A stretch of 64,000 bases of DNA from Clostridia bacterium (lineage in GTDB: Bacteria; Bacillota; Clostridia; Oscillospirales; Acutalibacteraceae): assembly GCA_017410585.1 (NCBI GenBank), contig JAFQQM010000023.1, positions 1 through 64,000 on the forward strand, given 5' to 3'. This document shows positions 27,594-38,934 of the stretch, piece after piece. The translations under genes were made by a program, and so were the position numbers. Positions within the stretch are counted from its first letter, which is position 1. Each line of letters starts with the position of its first letter. The notes beneath the pieces were generated by a model. It saw only the letters and a program-made list of their open reading frames with translations. It ran no database searches and was not told the origin of the DNA.

Positions 27594-28892
27594 GTGAACA
27601 TCATCGTTAATGCGATCACCCAAAAAGCAAAGCATAAGCCCTCTTTGCTGACCATTGAACGACTGTGTGCGCTATACGTCGTATTATGGATCTTCGTTCC
27701 GCCCATTCAGATAGGTGCATTATATCGCTTGATTGCGGTTGCCTGTGCGACAGTTTGGTTTATACTGGTTTCCGTTCAAAACAGTGAGAAAACCGGGAAG
27801 ATGGCTGATTTTTTACGAATCGCTCTTCCGTGTTTGTTTTTGTTGATTATTCAAGCCTTCCCGCGTTTTGGCTTTCCTGGAGTAATTATTCGAAATCTAC
27901 AGTTCATCATTGTTCTGATCTGTGCGCTGATAGGTATTTATTATTCTGTCAATGAGCCTGAGTTTCTTAAAAAAATAATTTGCATTTCCATGTTGGTTAT
28001 GGTGATATTTTCAATCACCACCATCCAAGGCCTGATCAACGACCCCTATGCATCGCGTGTTGCAAACGTCCAGTCGATGGAAGATCGCTTTGAGGGAATC
28101 AAGAACGTCGGCTTATATGGCTATATTTATATGGGCGTTATGTTGGCACCACTCTTGCTGTTTAAGATCATAAACCGGATCTCTTTCGGGAAATTCTTTG
28201 ACTTTGTTTCTGTGATTCTGTTTCTGCTGTTTTCGGTTATGACAATTCTATCCGGCTATATGATTGCCAATTTCTGTTTTATTCTTGGCTGTAGTCTGAT
28301 TTTGATTTTTAATAACCCTAAAAACTTTTCACTGAAACTGGTGCTTTTGATCGTGTGTGCGATCCTGTTTCTACTTCTGTACAAAGCAATATTATCAGCG
28401 GCTTTTGAATGGTTGATGGATGTTTTTCAAGATAATCCCGTTTACTATTCCAAACTTATTGATTTCCGTGCCTTATTTCTTAGTGGCGACGCGTCCGGTT
28501 CCAACGTTGAAGGTCGCTTTTCCAGTTATGTTAGAAGTATCGAAAACGCACTCCACTACCCGCTTATTGGTTCTTATCTGTTTGGTAAAGATCACGGCGG
28601 CGGACATTCGGACGTAATTGATACGATCGGACGTTATGGCTGGTTGGTTGCGTATCTGAAATTTAAGATCTATTGGCACTTACCTTATCAAACATATAAA
28701 GCAACATACAAGCATTTCTCCTTGAACGCATTGGTTGTTGTCTTTATCTTGTTTGGCATCTTTGATCCGTATTCCCAGGAATTCTGCATTGCGCTTTACT
28801 TATTTTTACCGTACATATTGCGTTGTGCGGATGGCTTGGCAAGCCAGAATGATGCCTATCTCAAGTATTTACGGAGGGAGAATACGCAATGA
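27594..28892 (+). CDS. Wzy-type polymerase (second)
   Basis: 432 residues, about 10-11 hydrophobic segments, with a periplasmic-type loop GDASGSNVEGRFSSYVRS (near 296-313) followed by GSYLFGKDHGGGHSDVIDTI, similar in layout to O-antigen/capsule polymerases. The GTG start at 27594 lies only one base after AAAGGAG; the next codons AAC and then ATC (27600, seven bases from that site) leave the true start uncertain. The gene is strongly AT-rich (one 60-base line near 27961 counts about 27% GC). Confidence 0.72.
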   Translation: MNIIVNAITQKAKHKPSLLTIERLCALYVVLWIFVPPIQIGALYRLIAVACATVWFILVSVQNSEKTGKMADFLRIALPCLFLLIIQAFPRFGFPGVIIRNLQFIIVLICALIGIYYSVNEPEFLKKIICISMLVMVIFSITTIQGLINDPYASRVANVQSMEDRFEGIKNVGLYGYIYMGVMLAPLLLFKIINRISFGKFFDFVSVILFLLFSVMTILSGYMIANFCFILGCSLILIFNNPKNFSLKLVLLIVCAILFLLLYKAILSAAFEWLMDVFQDNPVYYSKLIDFRALFLSGDASGSNVEGRFSSYVRSIENALHYPLIGSYLFGKDHGGGHSDVIDTIGRYGWLVAYLKFKIYWHLPYQTYKATYKHFSLNALVVVFILFGIFDPYSQEFCIALYLFLPYILRCADGLASQNDAYLKYLRRENTQ

Positions 28893-29926
28893 AGCGTTGC
28901 ATCTTCGTCTGCCCATATTACGGCAAGTGGCCTGAGACGTTTCGCGAATGGGTTTATACTGCAGGTTATTTGAAAGAGCAAAACGTGGATTTTTTATTGA
29001 TCACCGATTTAACGATTGATTTTGAACTACCTTCGAATTTTCGTGTACTCCCGTTGTCTTTTTCTGAATTGCAGGCCCGTTATCAGCAAATTCACGATTT
29101 CGATATATCACTCAATTCTCCTTATAAACTTTGCGACTTCAGACCGACAATGGGGCAGGTGTTTAACAAAGAACTGGAAGGCTATGATTTTTGGGGACAC
29201 TGCGACTGCGATTTGGTCTGGGGCGATTTTCGGGCTATGTTACCGGATGAAGTGTTCGAAAAATACGATAGAATTCAATATCTTGGACACTGTATTTTAT
29301 ACAGAAACACGCCGATGATGAATCAAGCGTATAGTCTTCCCGGTGATTATTACAGCCACCGCAAGGTTTATTCTTCGCCACTATATTATTCGTTTGATGA
29401 ACATCCCGGTATGCTGAATGTCGTTCTCAAGAATAAGATCACGAACTATATCGGTGACGTGGTGGCTGATATCTCGCCTATGTATAGCCGTATGCGGATT
29501 TCTCGCCGTAACAATTATCGGCATCAGATTGTATACTGGCATAATGGCCGTGTTTTCCGAACCGGTGTGGACGAGCAGGACGAATTGCACACAGATGAGT
29601 TTTTGTACTGCCACTTCCAACAAAAGCATCCAACAGCACTTGATTGTTGGGAAGAAGACAAAGAGCCGGTGGCTTTTATTTTGTATGCCGATCACTTGGA
29701 GGAGTTTGATCCTAAAGAGATAACGGCTCAATTCGTAAAAGCGCATTCTGATTTTGTATCGGAAGAGCAAGATAAAACGGATCGTCGAAACTATTTAATT
29801 AAGAAAATCAAACTTTTTCTGAAAATGCCCTTAAAAGAAAAACTTGTTTGGATCCGGTTACGTTCGGCAACTAAGCGGGCAACGAAACGCCTGCCACTAT
29901 TGATGGGAACCTTTGATCCGAAGTAG
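28889..29926 (+). CDS. DUF6625-type putative glycosyltransferase
   Basis: 345 residues. The N-terminus CIFVCPYYGKWPETFREW, the DFLLITDLTIDFELPSN stretch and especially PYKLCDFRPTMGQVFNKEL followed by GYDFWGHCDCDLVWGDFR (near residues 80-115) match a family found in capsule loci, annotated DUF6625 as far as I recall. The DCD triplet in WGHCDCDLVWG would serve as a metal-binding DXD motif of a GT-A transferase. The sugar is unknown. A basic C-terminal tail may bind the membrane. ATG overlaps the upstream stop by four bases. Confidence 0.7.
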   Translation: MKRCIFVCPYYGKWPETFREWVYTAGYLKEQNVDFLLITDLTIDFELPSNFRVLPLSFSELQARYQQIHDFDISLNSPYKLCDFRPTMGQVFNKELEGYDFWGHCDCDLVWGDFRAMLPDEVFEKYDRIQYLGHCILYRNTPMMNQAYSLPGDYYSHRKVYSSPLYYSFDEHPGMLNVVLKNKITNYIGDVVADISPMYSRMRISRRNNYRHQIVYWHNGRVFRTGVDEQDELHTDEFLYCHFQQKHPTALDCWEEDKEPVAFILYADHLEEFDPKEITAQFVKAHSDFVSEEQDKTDRRNYLIKKIKLFLKMPLKEKLVWIRLRSATKRATKRLPLLMGTFDPK

Positions 29927-33325: not shown

Positions 33326-35041
33326 TTGTATTCGGATATTAAAAGCGTACAGCTATTGGTTGCGCTGTTAAAGCAGTACAGCATAAGTAAAGTGGTTGTT
33401 TCCCCAGGGAACCGCAACGTACCGATTGTTCATTCTCTGGAACAGGATCCGTTTTTTACCACGTATTCGGTGGTGGATGAGCGTAGTGCCGGCTTCTTTG
33501 GCATCGGGTTAATTCAACGTTATCGTGAGCCAGTAGCGATTTGTTGCACATCGGGAACGGCGGTCTGTAACTATTATTCCGCCATCGCCGAGGCCTATTA
33601 TCAGAAATTACCGCTTTTGGTGATCAGCGCCGATCGAAATCCTTATTATTTGAACCAAGACGAAGAGCAGATGGTTCCTCAAACCGAAGGTTTTACAAAA
33701 GTAACAAAAGCAATCGTGAATCTACCAATGTGCCGAGATACAGCCGATGAACGTGTGTGCTACCGGAAAATTTGCGAAGCAATATTAGAACTCAATCATC
33801 ATGGCTGCGGCCCGGTTCAGATTAATGTGCCAATGGAAACACAAATCAGTTCTTTCCATACGCCCGAACTTCCGGATATTCGGGCGATTCAACGACATCA
33901 CCTCGATGAAGATTGGTCGGCACTGGCGGATATGCTCCGTGCTCATAAAGTATTGGTTCTTTATGGTCAGGCGTCACCACTATCCGCAGAAGATACATCG
34001 CTCGTTGAAGAATTCGCACGTAAAACCGGTGCCGTAATCGCAGTAGACGTTCTATCAAATTTACAATGTGCTGGCACAATTCCAACCTTCCATCTTTCCA
34101 GAGTCATAACGGAAGAATTCTTTATTCAAAACCTAAAGCCGGATATTGTTATCACCCTGAATAGTGGTTATATTACCTATATTCGCCGGTATCTGAAATG
34201 CAGCAAGGCGACTATGGCACATTGGGCGGTGAATGAAAACGGAAACATCACCGATACGTTCCAATGTATCTCCGATGTGTTTGAGGCCTCACCTCTGGAA
34301 TTTATGAAAAAAATTGCCGAGACTATTGTCGAAAAAATCCCAGAAGAAAACGACTATTACTTAACTTGGAAGGAGCAGGTAAACAAGTTGGACGCGGATA
34401 CGGCGGCTATTCCATATTCCAATTTGCTTCTTGCGCGTGAATTTTGCGGAGTTCTTCCTAAACATTCTAAGTTGCACGTTGCAAACAGTTCTAGCGTACG
34501 CATGATCGCCCATTTCGACTTGGATCCTTCCGTTGAGGTCTTTTGCAATCGTGGTACCAACGGTATTGACGGTTCGGTGTCGGCGTATGTTGCCATGGCT
34601 GCCACTTCCGACGTTCCGGCTTATCTGCTGGTGGGGGATCTTAGCTTTTTCTACGATATGAACGCCTTGTGGAATAACTATATTTCACCCAATATGCGTA
34701 TTGTTTTGAATAACAATGCTGGAGCCACGCTGTTTCACTATACAGTCGGCAAGGAGAACGTTCCAACGCTAAACCAAAACATCGCGGCAGAGCACAACGC
34801 CACCGCTAAAGGGTGGGTGGAATCCCGTGGGTTTGATTATCTTGCGGTGAATTGTGAGTCGGAATTAAAGACGGCGATGGATGAATTGTCTAAATCAACG
34901 CGTGATAAACCGCTATTTGTTGAGGTGTTTACCGATAAGGAGTCCGATGCCTGCGTTTTGAGAAAATTCTACGAAGGTGATACCAGAAAAGCGCCGAAAG
35001 ACGTTGGCAAGGCGATACTAAAATCCATTTTTTCGAGGTGA
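33326..35041 (+). CDS. MenD-like thiamine-diphosphate enzyme in glycan locus
   Basis: 571 residues, the full length and three-domain order of MenD (SEPHCHC synthase), which joins decarboxylated 2-oxoglutarate to isochorismate. ThDP features are intact: activating E52 in VVDERSAGFF, and GDLSFFYDMNAL through LNNNAG (G437-N463). NSSSVR (S388, R392) matches the MenD substrate site, but the usual SPGSRSTP reads SPGNRNVP (26-33) and the TADRP...NQ region is changed, so the acceptor probably differs. No other menaquinone gene is present; neighbours are an SDR, a pyruvyl transferase and glycosyltransferases. I infer a 2-oxoacid-derived C-C bond formation on a sugar or a small acid that decorates the glycan. 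TTG start, seven bases after AGGGAGG. Confidence 0.8.
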   Translation: MYSDIKSVQLLVALLKQYSISKVVVSPGNRNVPIVHSLEQDPFFTTYSVVDERSAGFFGIGLIQRYREPVAICCTSGTAVCNYYSAIAEAYYQKLPLLVISADRNPYYLNQDEEQMVPQTEGFTKVTKAIVNLPMCRDTADERVCYRKICEAILELNHHGCGPVQINVPMETQISSFHTPELPDIRAIQRHHLDEDWSALADMLRAHKVLVLYGQASPLSAEDTSLVEEFARKTGAVIAVDVLSNLQCAGTIPTFHLSRVITEEFFIQNLKPDIVITLNSGYITYIRRYLKCSKATMAHWAVNENGNITDTFQCISDVFEASPLEFMKKIAETIVEKIPEENDYYLTWKEQVNKLDADTAAIPYSNLLLAREFCGVLPKHSKLHVANSSSVRMIAHFDLDPSVEVFCNRGTNGIDGSVSAYVAMAATSDVPAYLLVGDLSFFYDMNALWNNYISPNMRIVLNNNAGATLFHYTVGKENVPTLNQNIAAEHNATAKGWVESRGFDYLAVNCESELKTAMDELSKSTRDKPLFVEVFTDKESDACVLRKFYEGDTRKAPKDVGKAILKSIFSR

Positions 35042-35044
35042 GTT

Positions 35045-35872
35045 ATGTTTGGTTTTCTGAAAAAGCCAAGAATCGTGGTTAAGACGAAAACGGAATACGT
35101 CTATGTTGATCCCACAAAACGACTAACCGATAAAATTGCTTTGGTTACCGGCGCTTCCGGTTCGATTGGCAGTGCCATTTCATACCGATTAGCACTCGAG
35201 GGCGCAACCGTAATCCTTGCCGGTCGTTCTGCGGATAAATTAAATGCATTGGCTCAACAACTCAAACACGACAACCTAATGGCTGATGTAATTATCATGG
35301 ATGTAACTGACGAGACTTCCGTTTCATGCGCAATGCGTAAGGTCGCGGAGAAATACGGTCGTATTGATATTTTGATCAATAACGCCGGCTTCAGTGCACG
35401 TTCCGCCAAAAAAATGTTACATGATCAGGATATTCAACATATCGACGAGTTGCTTTCTACCAACCTACGCGGACCGTTGCTTACAAGCCGCGAAGTGATT
35501 CCTTATATGCAAAAGTCAGATTTCGGACGAATCATTCACGTGTCTTCTATTGTTGGCTTGCAGGGAAAAGCATGTCACGCAGAATATGCTGCAGCCAAAG
35601 CCGGACTGTTTGGTCTGATGAAATCACAAGCAATTGAGGTTGGGTGTTACGGCATTACGGTAAACTGTGTTTCTCCCGGTCTCGTTCCAAGAAAGGATGC
35701 TTCTGAGGAGAAACTCGCTAAGTTTCAAGAAACCAATTGCCTTAACCGTATTTGCAGCCCTGAAGATATTGCGCATACCTGTGCTTTTCTGGCTTCGAAC
35801 GAGGCTTGCTTTATTACAGGTCAGAATATTGTTGTTGATGGTGGCCGTAGCCTCGGATTACGCGGCGACTAG
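35045..35872 (+). CDS. Short-chain dehydrogenase/reductase
   Basis: 275 residues. After an unusual 30-residue N-terminal extension (basic KKPRIVVKTKTEYVYV), the classic SDR pattern follows: ALVTGASGSIGSAIS (NAD(P) loop, near 34-48), INNAGFS, HVSSIVGL with the catalytic Ser, and YAAAKAG with Tyr/Lys. It begins three bases after the MenD-like stop, so the two are almost certainly one functional unit; the simplest idea is reduction of the ketone left by the ThDP enzyme. FabG-like in sequence style, but fatty acid synthesis is unlikely here. Confidence 0.82.
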   Translation: MFGFLKKPRIVVKTKTEYVYVDPTKRLTDKIALVTGASGSIGSAISYRLALEGATVILAGRSADKLNALAQQLKHDNLMADVIIMDVTDETSVSCAMRKVAEKYGRIDILINNAGFSARSAKKMLHDQDIQHIDELLSTNLRGPLLTSREVIPYMQKSDFGRIIHVSSIVGLQGKACHAEYAAAKAGLFGLMKSQAIEVGCYGITVNCVSPGLVPRKDASEEKLAKFQETNCLNRICSPEDIAHTCAFLASNEACFITGQNIVVDGGRSLGLRGD

Positions 35873-35918: not shown

Positions 35919-37016
35919 ATGAAAATTGCGATTCTTACTTTTTTTGAATCGGATAATTATGGCACGGTGTTACAGGCGTACGCGTTACAGCATTACTTGA
36001 ATCTGCAAGGACATCAGGCGGAACTGTTGTATATTAAACGCGATATTTACTGTAAATCGACTCACTATGCCGTTTCGGTTGCGGACGAAACGATTTTTGA
36101 GCGCGCTTTACAGAAGTTTGTTGCGCTTTATCATCGCAAAGATAATGCGCGAAAAGCAGAGCGTTTTCAATCTTTTCGAGAGCACCACCTTCACATTGGC
36201 GATTTTTGTGATACAGATGAAGTGTTGTTTGCACAACTGGAGAAGTACGATCTTTTCCTAAACGGCGGAGATCAAATTTGGAATCCGTATCACAAATCCT
36301 TTTCTTATCGCTATATGTTTGATTTTCTTCCGGAAGCGAGCCGTCGTGCGGCATACGGTTCCAGTTTTGGCATCAAACAAATCGACGATCCGCAGATCAA
36401 GAGCTCCATGGCAGAATTGTTGTCAAAATACAACGCTGTATCTGTTCGCGATGAAAGCGGTGTTCGGATACTGGCAGATATGGGAATATCAGCGAATTAT
36501 GTACTGGATCCCGTTTTCTTACTTTCTGCAGAAACTTGGAAGGCGCTGACGGGTGATCGTCTCTGTAAAAAACGCTATTGTCTGGTCTATGCATTGAGTG
36601 ATTATGACAAAGCAGAGGAGAATCAAATTCGCCACTTCGCCAAAGAACATAACCTTGAAGTGATCGTTATGCCGGAAAATCGCCGTAACCGCACCAATCA
36701 TTTTCATAAAGCATTTGATACGTCACCGCAGGACTTTATCAATTTAATTTATCACGCCGATTATGTTTTTACCAATTCCTTTCACGGTATGGCGTTTTCA
36801 ATACTTTTTCAAAAACAGTTCTTTCTTCTTCAAAGCACTTCGTCAGAGGCGAAGGATAAATACATCCGTCTGACCGATTTGCTGGAGATTCTTGGGATCA
36901 GCGAACGCAATTTCTCAAAAAACACACAAGAAATTGATTACAGTGAAATCCAACAAAAGCTAAACGCTTACCGTCAAGACTCATTAAACTACTTAAATAA
37001 TATTGTTTTAGAATAA
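35919..37016 (+). CDS. Polysaccharide pyruvyl transferase family protein
   Basis: 365 residues, GT-B-like pyruvyl transferase family (PF04230 pattern): MKIAILTFFESDNYGTVLQAYAL at the N-terminus, LFLNGGDQIWNP near 110, AAYGSSFG near 145, SVRDESGVRIL near 177, and the hallmark FTNSFHGMAFSILF near 286. Members add a pyruvyl ketal from phosphoenolpyruvate to a sugar, giving the polymer negative charge; some homologues transfer other groups. AT-rich (one 60-base line at 36001 counts 38% GC). Last gene of the low-GC block. Confidence 0.85.
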   Translation: MKIAILTFFESDNYGTVLQAYALQHYLNLQGHQAELLYIKRDIYCKSTHYAVSVADETIFERALQKFVALYHRKDNARKAERFQSFREHHLHIGDFCDTDEVLFAQLEKYDLFLNGGDQIWNPYHKSFSYRYMFDFLPEASRRAAYGSSFGIKQIDDPQIKSSMAELLSKYNAVSVRDESGVRILADMGISANYVLDPVFLLSAETWKALTGDRLCKKRYCLVYALSDYDKAEENQIRHFAKEHNLEVIVMPENRRNRTNHFHKAFDTSPQDFINLIYHADYVFTNSFHGMAFSILFQKQFFLLQSTSSEAKDKYIRLTDLLEILGISERNFSKNTQEIDYSEIQQKLNAYRQDSLNYLNNIVLE

Positions 37017-37030
37017 CAGAGGGATAAATT

Positions 37031-38203
37031 ATGAAATGCAGTGAGGTATTTTTAAAAACCTACAACCGCGATCCGGAGGGGATTGCGTTCTGCCCGTATC
37101 GTATTTGCCCTCTTGGGGCGCATTCCGATCATCAGTTCGGAAAAATCACCGGTTTGGCAATTGACAAGGGCATTCATATCGCCTATTCGGCAAAACAAAA
37201 CGGCGTCATTGAACTTACCTCGCTACAGTTTGATAAGCGAGCACAGTTTCATATCCGTTCGGTGCCGGCTGAGCGGCAGTACGATTGGGCGGATTATCTG
37301 CGTGGTGCGACGATTGCACTCGCTGAAAAGTATCCGCTACACGTCGGCTTTTGCGGCGTCATTGAGGGGAGTTTGCCGATCGGCGGTTTGTCTTCCTCGG
37401 CGGCTGTGATTATTGCATTCTTATCCGCACTATGCCGCGTGAATGATATTCATCTGACCGAATCCGAAATGATCATGACGGCGTTGAAAGCCGAAAATGA
37501 ATACGTCGGCGTTTCTTGCGGCAAGTTAGACCAATCATGCGAGGTTTATTCCCGTAAAGGCAAACTGCTTTACTTGGATACGAAAGACGATTCGTATGAG
37601 TTGATTAACACCCATCCGGATATGAAGCCGTATAAGATTGCCATCTTCTTCTCTGGTGTGGAACGTACCTTGGCCGGTTCGAAATTCAATATGCGTGTAG
37701 ATGAATGCCGCTCGGCGGCCTACGCTTTGAAAGCGTATTCGGGGGTAGAATACGGTAAATTTTCCGAAACGTATCTGCGTGACGTGCCGTTGGAGGTGTT
37801 TGAGCAGTATAAGGACAGGCTACCGGACACGTGGCGCCGCCGTGCAGAGCATTGGTACAGTGAATACGCCCGTGTGGAAAAAGGCGCAGAAGCGTGGCGA
37901 AACGGCGATATTGATACTTTTGGAAAATTGTCGTTTGAAAGCGGTCATTCTTCGATCTATAGTTGGGAAACCGGTTCACCGGAACTCAAAGAACTGTATG
38001 AGATCATGACCAAAACCGACGGTATCTACGGAGGGCGCTTTTCCGGCGCCGGCTTTAAGGGTTGTTGCATGGCGTTGATCGATCCGTCTTTTGAGGCGTC
38101 GATCACGCGTTCCGTGACGGATGATTACTTGAAGGCATTTCCCGAATTAAAGGGGAAATTCTCTGTACATATTTGCGAAAGCGCAGATGGGGTGATATTA
38201 TGA
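37031..38203 (+). CDS. GHMP sugar kinase, galacturonokinase-like
   Basis: 390 residues, GHMP kinase family, galactokinase-like length. The substrate motif is PYRICPLGAHSDHQFG (residues 22-37) instead of the RVNLIGEHTDY of galactokinase; the RxCPLGAHxDHQ form is what I recall from plant galacturonokinase. ATP motif GLSSSAA (119-125) and the C-terminal RFSGAGFKGCCMAL are intact. With the adjacent nucleotidylyltransferase, UDP-glucuronate 4-epimerase and UDP-glucose dehydrogenase, the likely reaction is GalA plus ATP to GalA-1-phosphate. GC-rich again (a 60-base line at 37801 counts 60%). Overlaps the next gene by 31 bases. Confidence 0.75.
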   Translation: MKCSEVFLKTYNRDPEGIAFCPYRICPLGAHSDHQFGKITGLAIDKGIHIAYSAKQNGVIELTSLQFDKRAQFHIRSVPAERQYDWADYLRGATIALAEKYPLHVGFCGVIEGSLPIGGLSSSAAVIIAFLSALCRVNDIHLTESEMIMTALKAENEYVGVSCGKLDQSCEVYSRKGKLLYLDTKDDSYELINTHPDMKPYKIAIFFSGVERTLAGSKFNMRVDECRSAAYALKAYSGVEYGKFSETYLRDVPLEVFEQYKDRLPDTWRRRAEHWYSEYARVEKGAEAWRNGDIDTFGKLSFESGHSSIYSWETGSPELKELYEIMTKTDGIYGGRFSGAGFKGCCMALIDPSFEASITRSVTDDYLKAFPELKGKFSVHICESADGVIL

Positions 38204-38934
38204 AATGTCTGATCTTAGCGGCCGGTTATGCTACCCGCCTATATCCATTGACCGAAAATTTTCCGAAACCACTTTTGTGTGTGCGCGAAAAAACCATCCT
38301 CGATTGGCTGATCGAGGATATCGATTCCGCCCATCTGGTGGACGAGTACGTCGTAATTTCCAACCATAAATTCGCACATCATTTTGAGGCTTGGGCAAAG
38401 GACAAGCCGTATCGTATCACAGTTGTGGATGATGGCACCGAGTCTAACGAAACTCGCCTTGGCGCGGTTATGGACATTCAGTTTGCTATTGACAAACTTC
38501 AGATCGACGATGAAATGTTGGTGATCGCCGGTGATAATCTGTTGGATTTCAGTTTGACAGCATTTATTCGCTATGCAAAAGAGAAAAGCGCTTCCTGCAT
38601 TATGCGGTATTACGAACCGTCGGAAGCGCGTTTGTCAAAGTGTGGTGTAATAGAGATCGACGAGCACGACAGAGTGCTTTCTATGGTCGAAAAGCCGGCA
38701 GAGCCGAAATCACACTGGTGTGTCCCTCCGTTTTACTTTTATACCCGTCAGGACTCTCGATTGGTGAAGGCGGGCATTGCGGCCGGTTGCGGCACAGATG
38801 CGCCCGGAAGTTATGCGGCGTGGCTTTGCGGCCAAACGCCGGTTTTTGCGATGGAAATGCCCGGTCATCGCTATGATATCGGCAACTTGGAAAGTTATGA
38901 GAAAGTGCAGGAGGAGTATCAAGGCGTATGCTAA
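38173..38934 (+). CDS. Sugar-1-phosphate nucleotidylyltransferase
   Basis: RmlA/GalU-type nucleotidyl transferase. The open frame could start at 38173, but the ATG at 38200 that gives MKCLILAAGYATRLYPLTENFPKP (nine codons in) is the natural N-terminus, with GGGGTGAT-type spacing upstream; the true start is probably 38200. Signature GxGxRL-type loop AAGYATRLYPLT with the KP lysine, then VIAGDNLLDFSL (metal Asp, near residue 100) and YDIGNLESY. It likely makes UDP-GalA (or a related UDP-uronate) from the kinase product upstream. Overlaps the epimerase by seven bases. Confidence 0.82.
   Translation: MRKRRWGDIMKCLILAAGYATRLYPLTENFPKPLLCVREKTILDWLIEDIDSAHLVDEYVVISNHKFAHHFEAWAKDKPYRITVVDDGTESNETRLGAVMDIQFAIDKLQIDDEMLVIAGDNLLDFSLTAFIRYAKEKSASCIMRYYEPSEARLSKCGVIEIDEHDRVLSMVEKPAEPKSHWCVPPFYFYTRQDSRLVKAGIAAGCGTDAPGSYAAWLCGQTPVFAMEMPGHRYDIGNLESYEKVQEEYQGVC

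Follow-up and report, generated by a model that had tools for sequence, protein, structure and literature searches.

The glycan locus and its MenD-like gene

The window analysed here is a stretch of 64,000 nucleotides from a contig assigned to a Clostridia bacterium (JAFQQM010000023.1). According to its open reading frames and family assignments, it carries a Wzx/Wzy-type glycan locus (19297–47204, + strand) with flippases, a polymerase, glycosyltransferases, a WbaP-like initiating transferase and genes for UDP-GlcA and UDP-L-FucNAc, family models recognizing among its products the UDP-GlcNAc 4,6-dehydratase FnlA. This locus surrounds three genes of the same strand: a MenD-like ThDP enzyme (33326–35041, +; 571 residues, TTG start, stop included), a classical FabG-like SDR reductase with a YxxxK motif (35045–35872, +; 275 residues) and a PS_pyruv_trans family protein (35919–37016, +; 365 residues; Pfam PF04230, E 7.8e-36). 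In the ORF calls, the SDR frame begins three bases after the MenD-like frame, and the MenD-like and PS_pyruv_trans genes lie two genes apart, as an earlier note on this DNA had described in placing an SDR directly downstream and a pyruvyl transferase close by.

Regarding the reductase, it possesses the Rossmann glycine motif TGASGSIG (TGxxxGxG) and YAAAK (YxxxK), and a basic N-terminal extension precedes the nucleotide-binding motif in its sequence (MFGFLKKPRIVVK..., 35045–35134, +). This extension counts about 30 residues in the window SDR and 36–62 residues in 20 of the 21 partner SDRs in which the motif was located; in these proteins also it is basic.

Two further features of the locus deserve mention. 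At 37031–38934, a galactokinase-like GHMP kinase gene overlaps a sugar-1-phosphate nucleotidyltransferase gene; both products score below every named family cut-off, so this would be a sugar-activating pair of unassigned specificity. Amid the glycosyltransferases, a DUF6625 family protein is encoded at 28889–29926 (E 1.6e-74).

A MenD fold with a modified active site

The window protein reaches 276.1 bits on TIGR00173, for which the curated cut-off is 244.2 bits, and at most 48 bits on acetolactate synthase models, which places it closer to MenD than to the acetohydroxyacid-synthase-type enzymes to which YerE belongs. Among relatives of solved structure, it matches S. aureus MenD at E 3.9e-47. 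Its predicted structure (pLDDT 91.2) has MenD as best fold match, YerE-type structures ranking lower. With Listeria MenD (9e9b), the Z score is 37.2 over 539 residues with a whole-chain rmsd of 18 Å, a value at which the comparison establishes no more than the MenD fold itself, and the placement of the domains in this monomer model does not bear detailed interpretation. The fold matches also include E. coli pyruvate oxidase, which is a ThDP enzyme peripherally bound to the membrane.

Active-site residues were tabulated in B. subtilis MenD numbering (2x7j) for 52 copies from glycan loci, with mutant data from the literature (PMC2914249). The catalytic glutamate E52 (33479–33481, +; B. subtilis Glu54) is invariant in all aligned MenD and MenD-like proteins, and the window protein also carries I414, D438 and N464, the last two within the GD-to-NN ThDP/metal motif; across the glycan copies, catalytic, ThDP and metal residues are likewise invariant. 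The earlier claim of a full-length MenD homologue with intact ThDP residues is thus borne out, as is that of an intact S388/R392 pair. Indeed, in the alignment, S388, R392 and R409 (34487–34552, +) correspond to Ser405, Arg409 and Arg428 of the B. subtilis 2-oxoglutarate pocket, in which Arg409 and Arg428 bind 2-oxoglutarate, while Arg32 and Arg106 recognize isochorismate (PMC2914249). The window protein retains all five residues (R32, R106, S405, R409 and R428 in B. subtilis numbering).

The isochorismate side is less well preserved. In the window protein Phe490 is kept, but Lys299 is absent, Ile489 is replaced by Leu and Leu493 by Thr. K299 is absent from 52/52 glycan copies, at a position that falls in a gappy stretch of the alignment, and L493 is lost in 50 of the 52; this side of the active site has therefore changed in the glycan copies. 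Two main residue classes can be distinguished among them. The class of the window protein keeps Ser405, Arg409 and Arg428, a set that is lost in most of the glycan clade; in the second class, Arg428 gives way to Ile, Val or Thr and Ile489 to Glu, while Ser405 is mostly Asn or Leu, which makes 2-oxoglutarate an improbable donor for it. The SPGSRSTP block had also been singled out as altered. It does read SPGNRNVP in the window, but an asparagine after the arginine is found in 25 of 26 Bacteroidota MenD proteins (SPGSRN), so that the change is only partly special and was rejected in part as a diagnostic feature.

The C-terminus also differs from that of true MenD. Tail comparison revealed an extra basic, helix-forming segment (residues 555–571; 34988–35038, +), where the window model places a separate low-confidence helix (559–570). 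Measured from the conserved EVF motif, the tail has a median length of 49.5 residues in glycan copies versus 23 in the men-operon MenD of Bacteroidales, and the mean net charge of the last 30 residues is +5.2 versus +0.8. From these sequence features, membrane contact of the window protein appears possible, and such contact would in turn imply a lipid-linked substrate.

A clade apart from menaquinone biosynthesis

The genome of the window organism, a gut bacterium, measures 2.13 Mb and is 98% complete, and searches for menB and isochorismate synthase gave no match in it, while identical searches were positive in control genomes. A single protein, the window copy, exceeds the MenD cut-off, accompanied by a weak second ThDP enzyme. 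In the absence of menB and isochorismate synthase, the gene does not serve menaquinone synthesis; the lack of menaquinone genes noted earlier for the window thus extends to the whole genome, where no men pathway is present elsewhere.

Relatives were gathered from genomes sampled at family and class level, from GTDB species genomes and from the order to which a Tolumonas MAG belongs, with the exclusion of one locus (L051) from which no intact MenD frame was recovered. Clustering of neighbouring genes splits men-operon loci from glycan loci, and the glycan copies form one clade, both in a quick tree of 92 sequences (SH-aLRT 97) and in a careful tree of 60 (bootstrap 100, SH-aLRT 98). With Bacilli MenD as outgroup, this clade is sister to the men-operon MenD of Bacteroidales. 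The window protein consequently falls outside men-operon MenD (100/98), its partner in the tree being a protein of a goat-gut Tyzzerella MAG (64% identity). The two outcomes that would have refuted the earlier note, a men pathway elsewhere in the genome without a menD of its own and grouping within true MenD, are thus both decided in favour of that note.

That an ordinary menaquinone MenD sits in the glycan locus by chance could be argued from the TIGR00173 score and from the retention of all four arginines. Yet a true menaquinone MenD was rejected in view of pathway absence and tree placement, and both kinds co-occur in Bacteroidota genomes, where, in the clearest cases, the men-operon MenD scores 357–393 bits and the glycan copy about 250–280 bits; we regard the probability of such a coincidence as very nearly negligible. 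The genomes of Bifidobacterium pseudolongum, Collinsella and Eisenbergiella possess the glycan-type copy only.

Compared with the SEPHCHC synthase MenD (B. subtilis 2x7j, Listeria 9e9b), the window copy hence has a similar length and the same fold, with the ThDP, metal and 2-oxoglutarate residues and the two arginines for isochorismate all in place, but differs by its separate clade, its basic C-terminal tail, the loss of Lys299, the replacements at positions 489 and 493, and the presence of PS_pyruv_trans and SDR neighbours in place of menaquinone partners.

Conserved partners and fusions

In 51 of 55 glycan loci, the MenD-like gene has a PS_pyruv_trans gene no more than three genes away; none of the 37 men-operon loci has one within five genes. 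When fusions are left out, it is directly adjacent in 30/48 loci versus 11.2 expected, and a reductase (SDR, aldo-keto reductase or zinc dehydrogenase) in 27/48 versus 7.0 expected; none of 2000 permutations within co-directional blocks reached either value, although these results are optimistic since the loci share descent. The association is far above chance and recurs in dozens of genomes, in agreement with the earlier proposal that a MenD-type enzyme and a reductase cooperate in making the glycan. The occurrence of different reductase folds in one position suggests that the ThDP enzyme yields a carbonyl compound which is then reduced, and the existence of loci lacking a reductase suggests that this reduction is optional: no recognized reductase was found within three genes in 14 of 55 glycan loci, most of which still keep PS_pyruv_trans.

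Three loci (L017, L018 and L066) encode PS_pyruv_trans and the MenD-like domain as a single protein, with the transferase first. These fusions show only that the transferase and the ThDP enzyme work together. In another (L020:1717–7365), an aldo-keto reductase and a 4Fe-4S domain precede the MenD-like domain in the same protein, and the next gene encodes an F420-hydrogenase-beta-type domain (FrhB_FdhB_C) fused to PS_pyruv_trans. A common neighbour of about 500 residues was considered as a possible new enzyme and rejected, as it corresponds to Wzx flippases wherever it matched anything.

Concerning the transferase, R177 and H289 of the window protein are invariant in 34 partner transferases; their equivalents are Arg217 and His339 in yeast Pvg1, which bind PEP, and Arg148 and His308 in CsaB, both pairs being needed for PEP use. 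At the position of the residue that contacts docked PEP (CsaB R306, Pvg1 R337), the window protein has Ser287, and the region of CsaB K328 falls outside the alignment. Because the PEP-binding residues are conserved, the window transferase most likely uses PEP itself.

A proposed module for carbon-extended acid ethers

From this gene set, we infer a module, in each of its catalytic steps, by which the three proteins would decorate a sugar of the surface polysaccharide through formation of an enolpyruvyl ether, acyl-anion addition and ketone reduction, a proposal that we judge somewhat likelier to be right than wrong. PS_pyruv_trans would transfer pyruvate from PEP onto a single sugar hydroxyl, probably of a lipid-linked intermediate; attack by only one hydroxyl would have as its natural product an enolpyruvyl ether, i.e., a 2-alkoxyacrylate and Michael acceptor. 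The MenD-like enzyme would then decarboxylate a 2-oxoacid on ThDP, and the resulting acyl anion would add to the enolpyruvyl double bond to give sugar-O-CH(COOH)-CH2-CO-R. Finally, the SDR, with NAD(P)H, would reduce the ketone to sugar-O-CH(COOH)-CH2-CH(OH)-R. For Eisenbergiella tayi DSM 26961, where no reductase was recognized, the module would be expected to stop at the 4-oxo acid. MenD itself performs a 1,4-addition of the type proposed for the second step, and isochorismate is an enolpyruvyl carboxylate. That PS_pyruv_trans is the constant partner suggests, for the acceptor, an enol ether derived from pyruvate. What counts against the proposal is that characterized PS_pyruv_trans enzymes yield cyclic ketals, not enol ethers: CsaB, Pvg1 and WcaK (PF04230) belong to the same family as the third window gene and share the PEP-binding Arg and His, but they are ketal pyruvyltransferases, whereas an open enol ether is proposed here. 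The Ser287 of the window transferase and the glycan loci with no recognized reductase nearby likewise weigh against it.

The nature of R would depend on the donor pocket. In relatives with a changed pocket, R would probably be methyl, from pyruvate, leading to lenose and, after reduction, to a 2,4-dihydroxypentanoic acid ether. The window enzyme has kept the 2-oxoglutarate pocket, and R is therefore probably CH2CH2COOH. The earlier note had anticipated the addition of a 2-oxoglutarate-derived unit, which the pocket residues make plausible for the window protein; the keto-sugar acceptor suggested along with it is not retained. The longer, dicarboxylic group predicted here from sequence is the least supported step of the mechanism. 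It is accordingly offered as a tentative and, on balance, doubtful specification that the window subclass consists of MenD paralogues which use 2-oxoglutarate to extend an enolpyruvyl sugar ether and, together with the SDR, form O-linked 2,4-dihydroxyheptanedioic acid. To our knowledge, no dicarboxylic glycan ether of the 2,4-dihydroxyheptanedioic type has been described so far.

Known glycans offer a comparison. Plesiomonas shigelloides O37 contains D-lenose, (2S)-O-(4-oxopentanoic acid)-D-Glc, and the MenD homologue and WcaK of its gene cluster were linked to lenose synthesis by a 2021 assignment that involved no biochemical test (PMC9723277), whereas Providencia alcalifaciens O31 contains 2-ethers of 2,4-dihydroxypentanoic acid (PMC10609480). 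By analogy, D-lenose would fit the unreduced product of the proposed module and the O31 ethers the reduced one. Since the enol-ether idea had been drawn from the gene set beforehand, the fit of lenose, whose ether linkage involves one hydroxyl only, as expected from an enolpyruvyl acceptor, represents a modest independent check. According to its published description, the O37 cluster (presumably MN115824, the fourth of MN115821–MN115829) resembles the window in having a MenD homologue beside a PS_pyruv_trans family protein in a Wzx/Wzy cluster, but this description mentions no reductase, and the keto group is left in place; the donor there is presumably pyruvate, while the window enzyme has a 2-oxoglutarate pocket. 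In view of the 2021 assignment, to call the chemistry undescribed, as was done earlier, is too strong: this kind of module has already been proposed by one paper for lenose, and the reductase-bearing module inferred here would be a new version of it.

Other possible uses of the ThDP enzyme

The precedent invoked in the earlier note, YerE with YerF in the synthesis of yersiniose A, would have the acyl anion attack a nucleotide-activated 4-keto sugar at its keto group, with the SDR reducing the side chain. YerE and its relatives do act in this manner in O-antigen synthesis (PMC12247030), the pairing of a ThDP carboligase with a reductase in surface glycan synthesis is the same, and FnlA of the window makes a 4-keto sugar. 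However, the complete FnlA/B/C set for L-FucNAc already accounts for FnlA, and YerE, which is acetohydroxyacid-synthase-like and acts on CDP-4-keto sugars, has no pyruvyl transferase partner, whereas the glycan copies are MenD-like, with YerE-type structures lower in the fold ranking. Moreover, their constant partner is PS_pyruv_trans, suggesting an enol-ether acceptor, and not a 4,6-dehydratase, the epimerase/dehydratase cluster of neighbours occurring in only 9 loci, and the basic tails suggest action at the membrane. A yersiniose-type addition is for these reasons rather unlikely, and a lenose-type module equipped with a reductase explains the chemistry better than sugar branching does.

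The retained 2-oxoglutarate pocket, the reductase next door and the homologue fused to an aldo-keto reductase would also agree with the production of a free small molecule, 2-oxoglutarate being converted into succinate semialdehyde and then by the SDR into 4-hydroxybutyrate, for attachment to the glycan by another enzyme. Such a route leaves the transferase fusions unexplained, as well as the roughly one quarter of loci that have no nearby reductase and mostly retain PS_pyruv_trans; no acid-activating enzyme was recognized among the neighbours scanned for families, and we hold this route to be improbable. Alternatively, the acyl anion might attack PEP or the pyruvate-modified sugar differently or in another order, for instance before transfer, with which the fusions, showing cooperation only, would also agree. 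The conserved PEP-binding residues, which make PEP itself the likely substrate of the transferase, and the single-hydroxyl ether of lenose speak against this variant, which we nevertheless give a minor share of credence as an unlikely form of the enol-ether module.

Distribution and significance

The glycan clade is present in Bacillota, Bacteroidota, Actinomycetota, Lentisphaerota, Saccharibacteria and the Tolumonas-order sample. Considering this range of phyla and the tree placement, an origin from a Bacteroidota-type MenD followed by spread between phyla is most likely. As most copies scored reach about 248–284 bits and so pass the curated TIGR00173 cut-off of 244 bits, annotation pipelines name them MenD, and genomes without menaquinone, including those of Bifidobacterium and Collinsella, thus appear to hold a menaquinone gene. 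If the proposed module is correct, it would explain the carbon-extended acid ethers found on surface glycans (lenose and 2,4-dihydroxypentanoic acid), bring Stetter-type chemistry into a new enzymatic role and make such decorations predictable from gut genomes. Should the more doubtful 2-oxoglutarate reading hold as well, the window subclass would form the dicarboxylic arm of this widespread and misannotated family, which produces lenose-type groups too.

E. coli genomes queried with three Tolumonas-order relatives, in search of a serotype of known structure, gave no match. One contig filed under a Tolumonas MAG (L062) carries a men operon with a MenD almost identical to that of Bacteroides graminisolvens, and is for this reason probably a contamination of that assembly. 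In Bifidobacterium oedipodis, a single glycan locus (L056:9998–17874) contains two MenD-like genes of different subclades, one copy accompanied by PS_pyruv_trans and the other by two reductase-type genes. Lastly, a MenD-like gene (product WP_013483600.1) is carried by a cultured strain, Ruminococcus albus 7, on whose mobilizable plasmid pRUMAL01 (L159) pyruvyl transferase, flippase and MenD-like genes are consecutive, with an epimerase-type reductase next to them.
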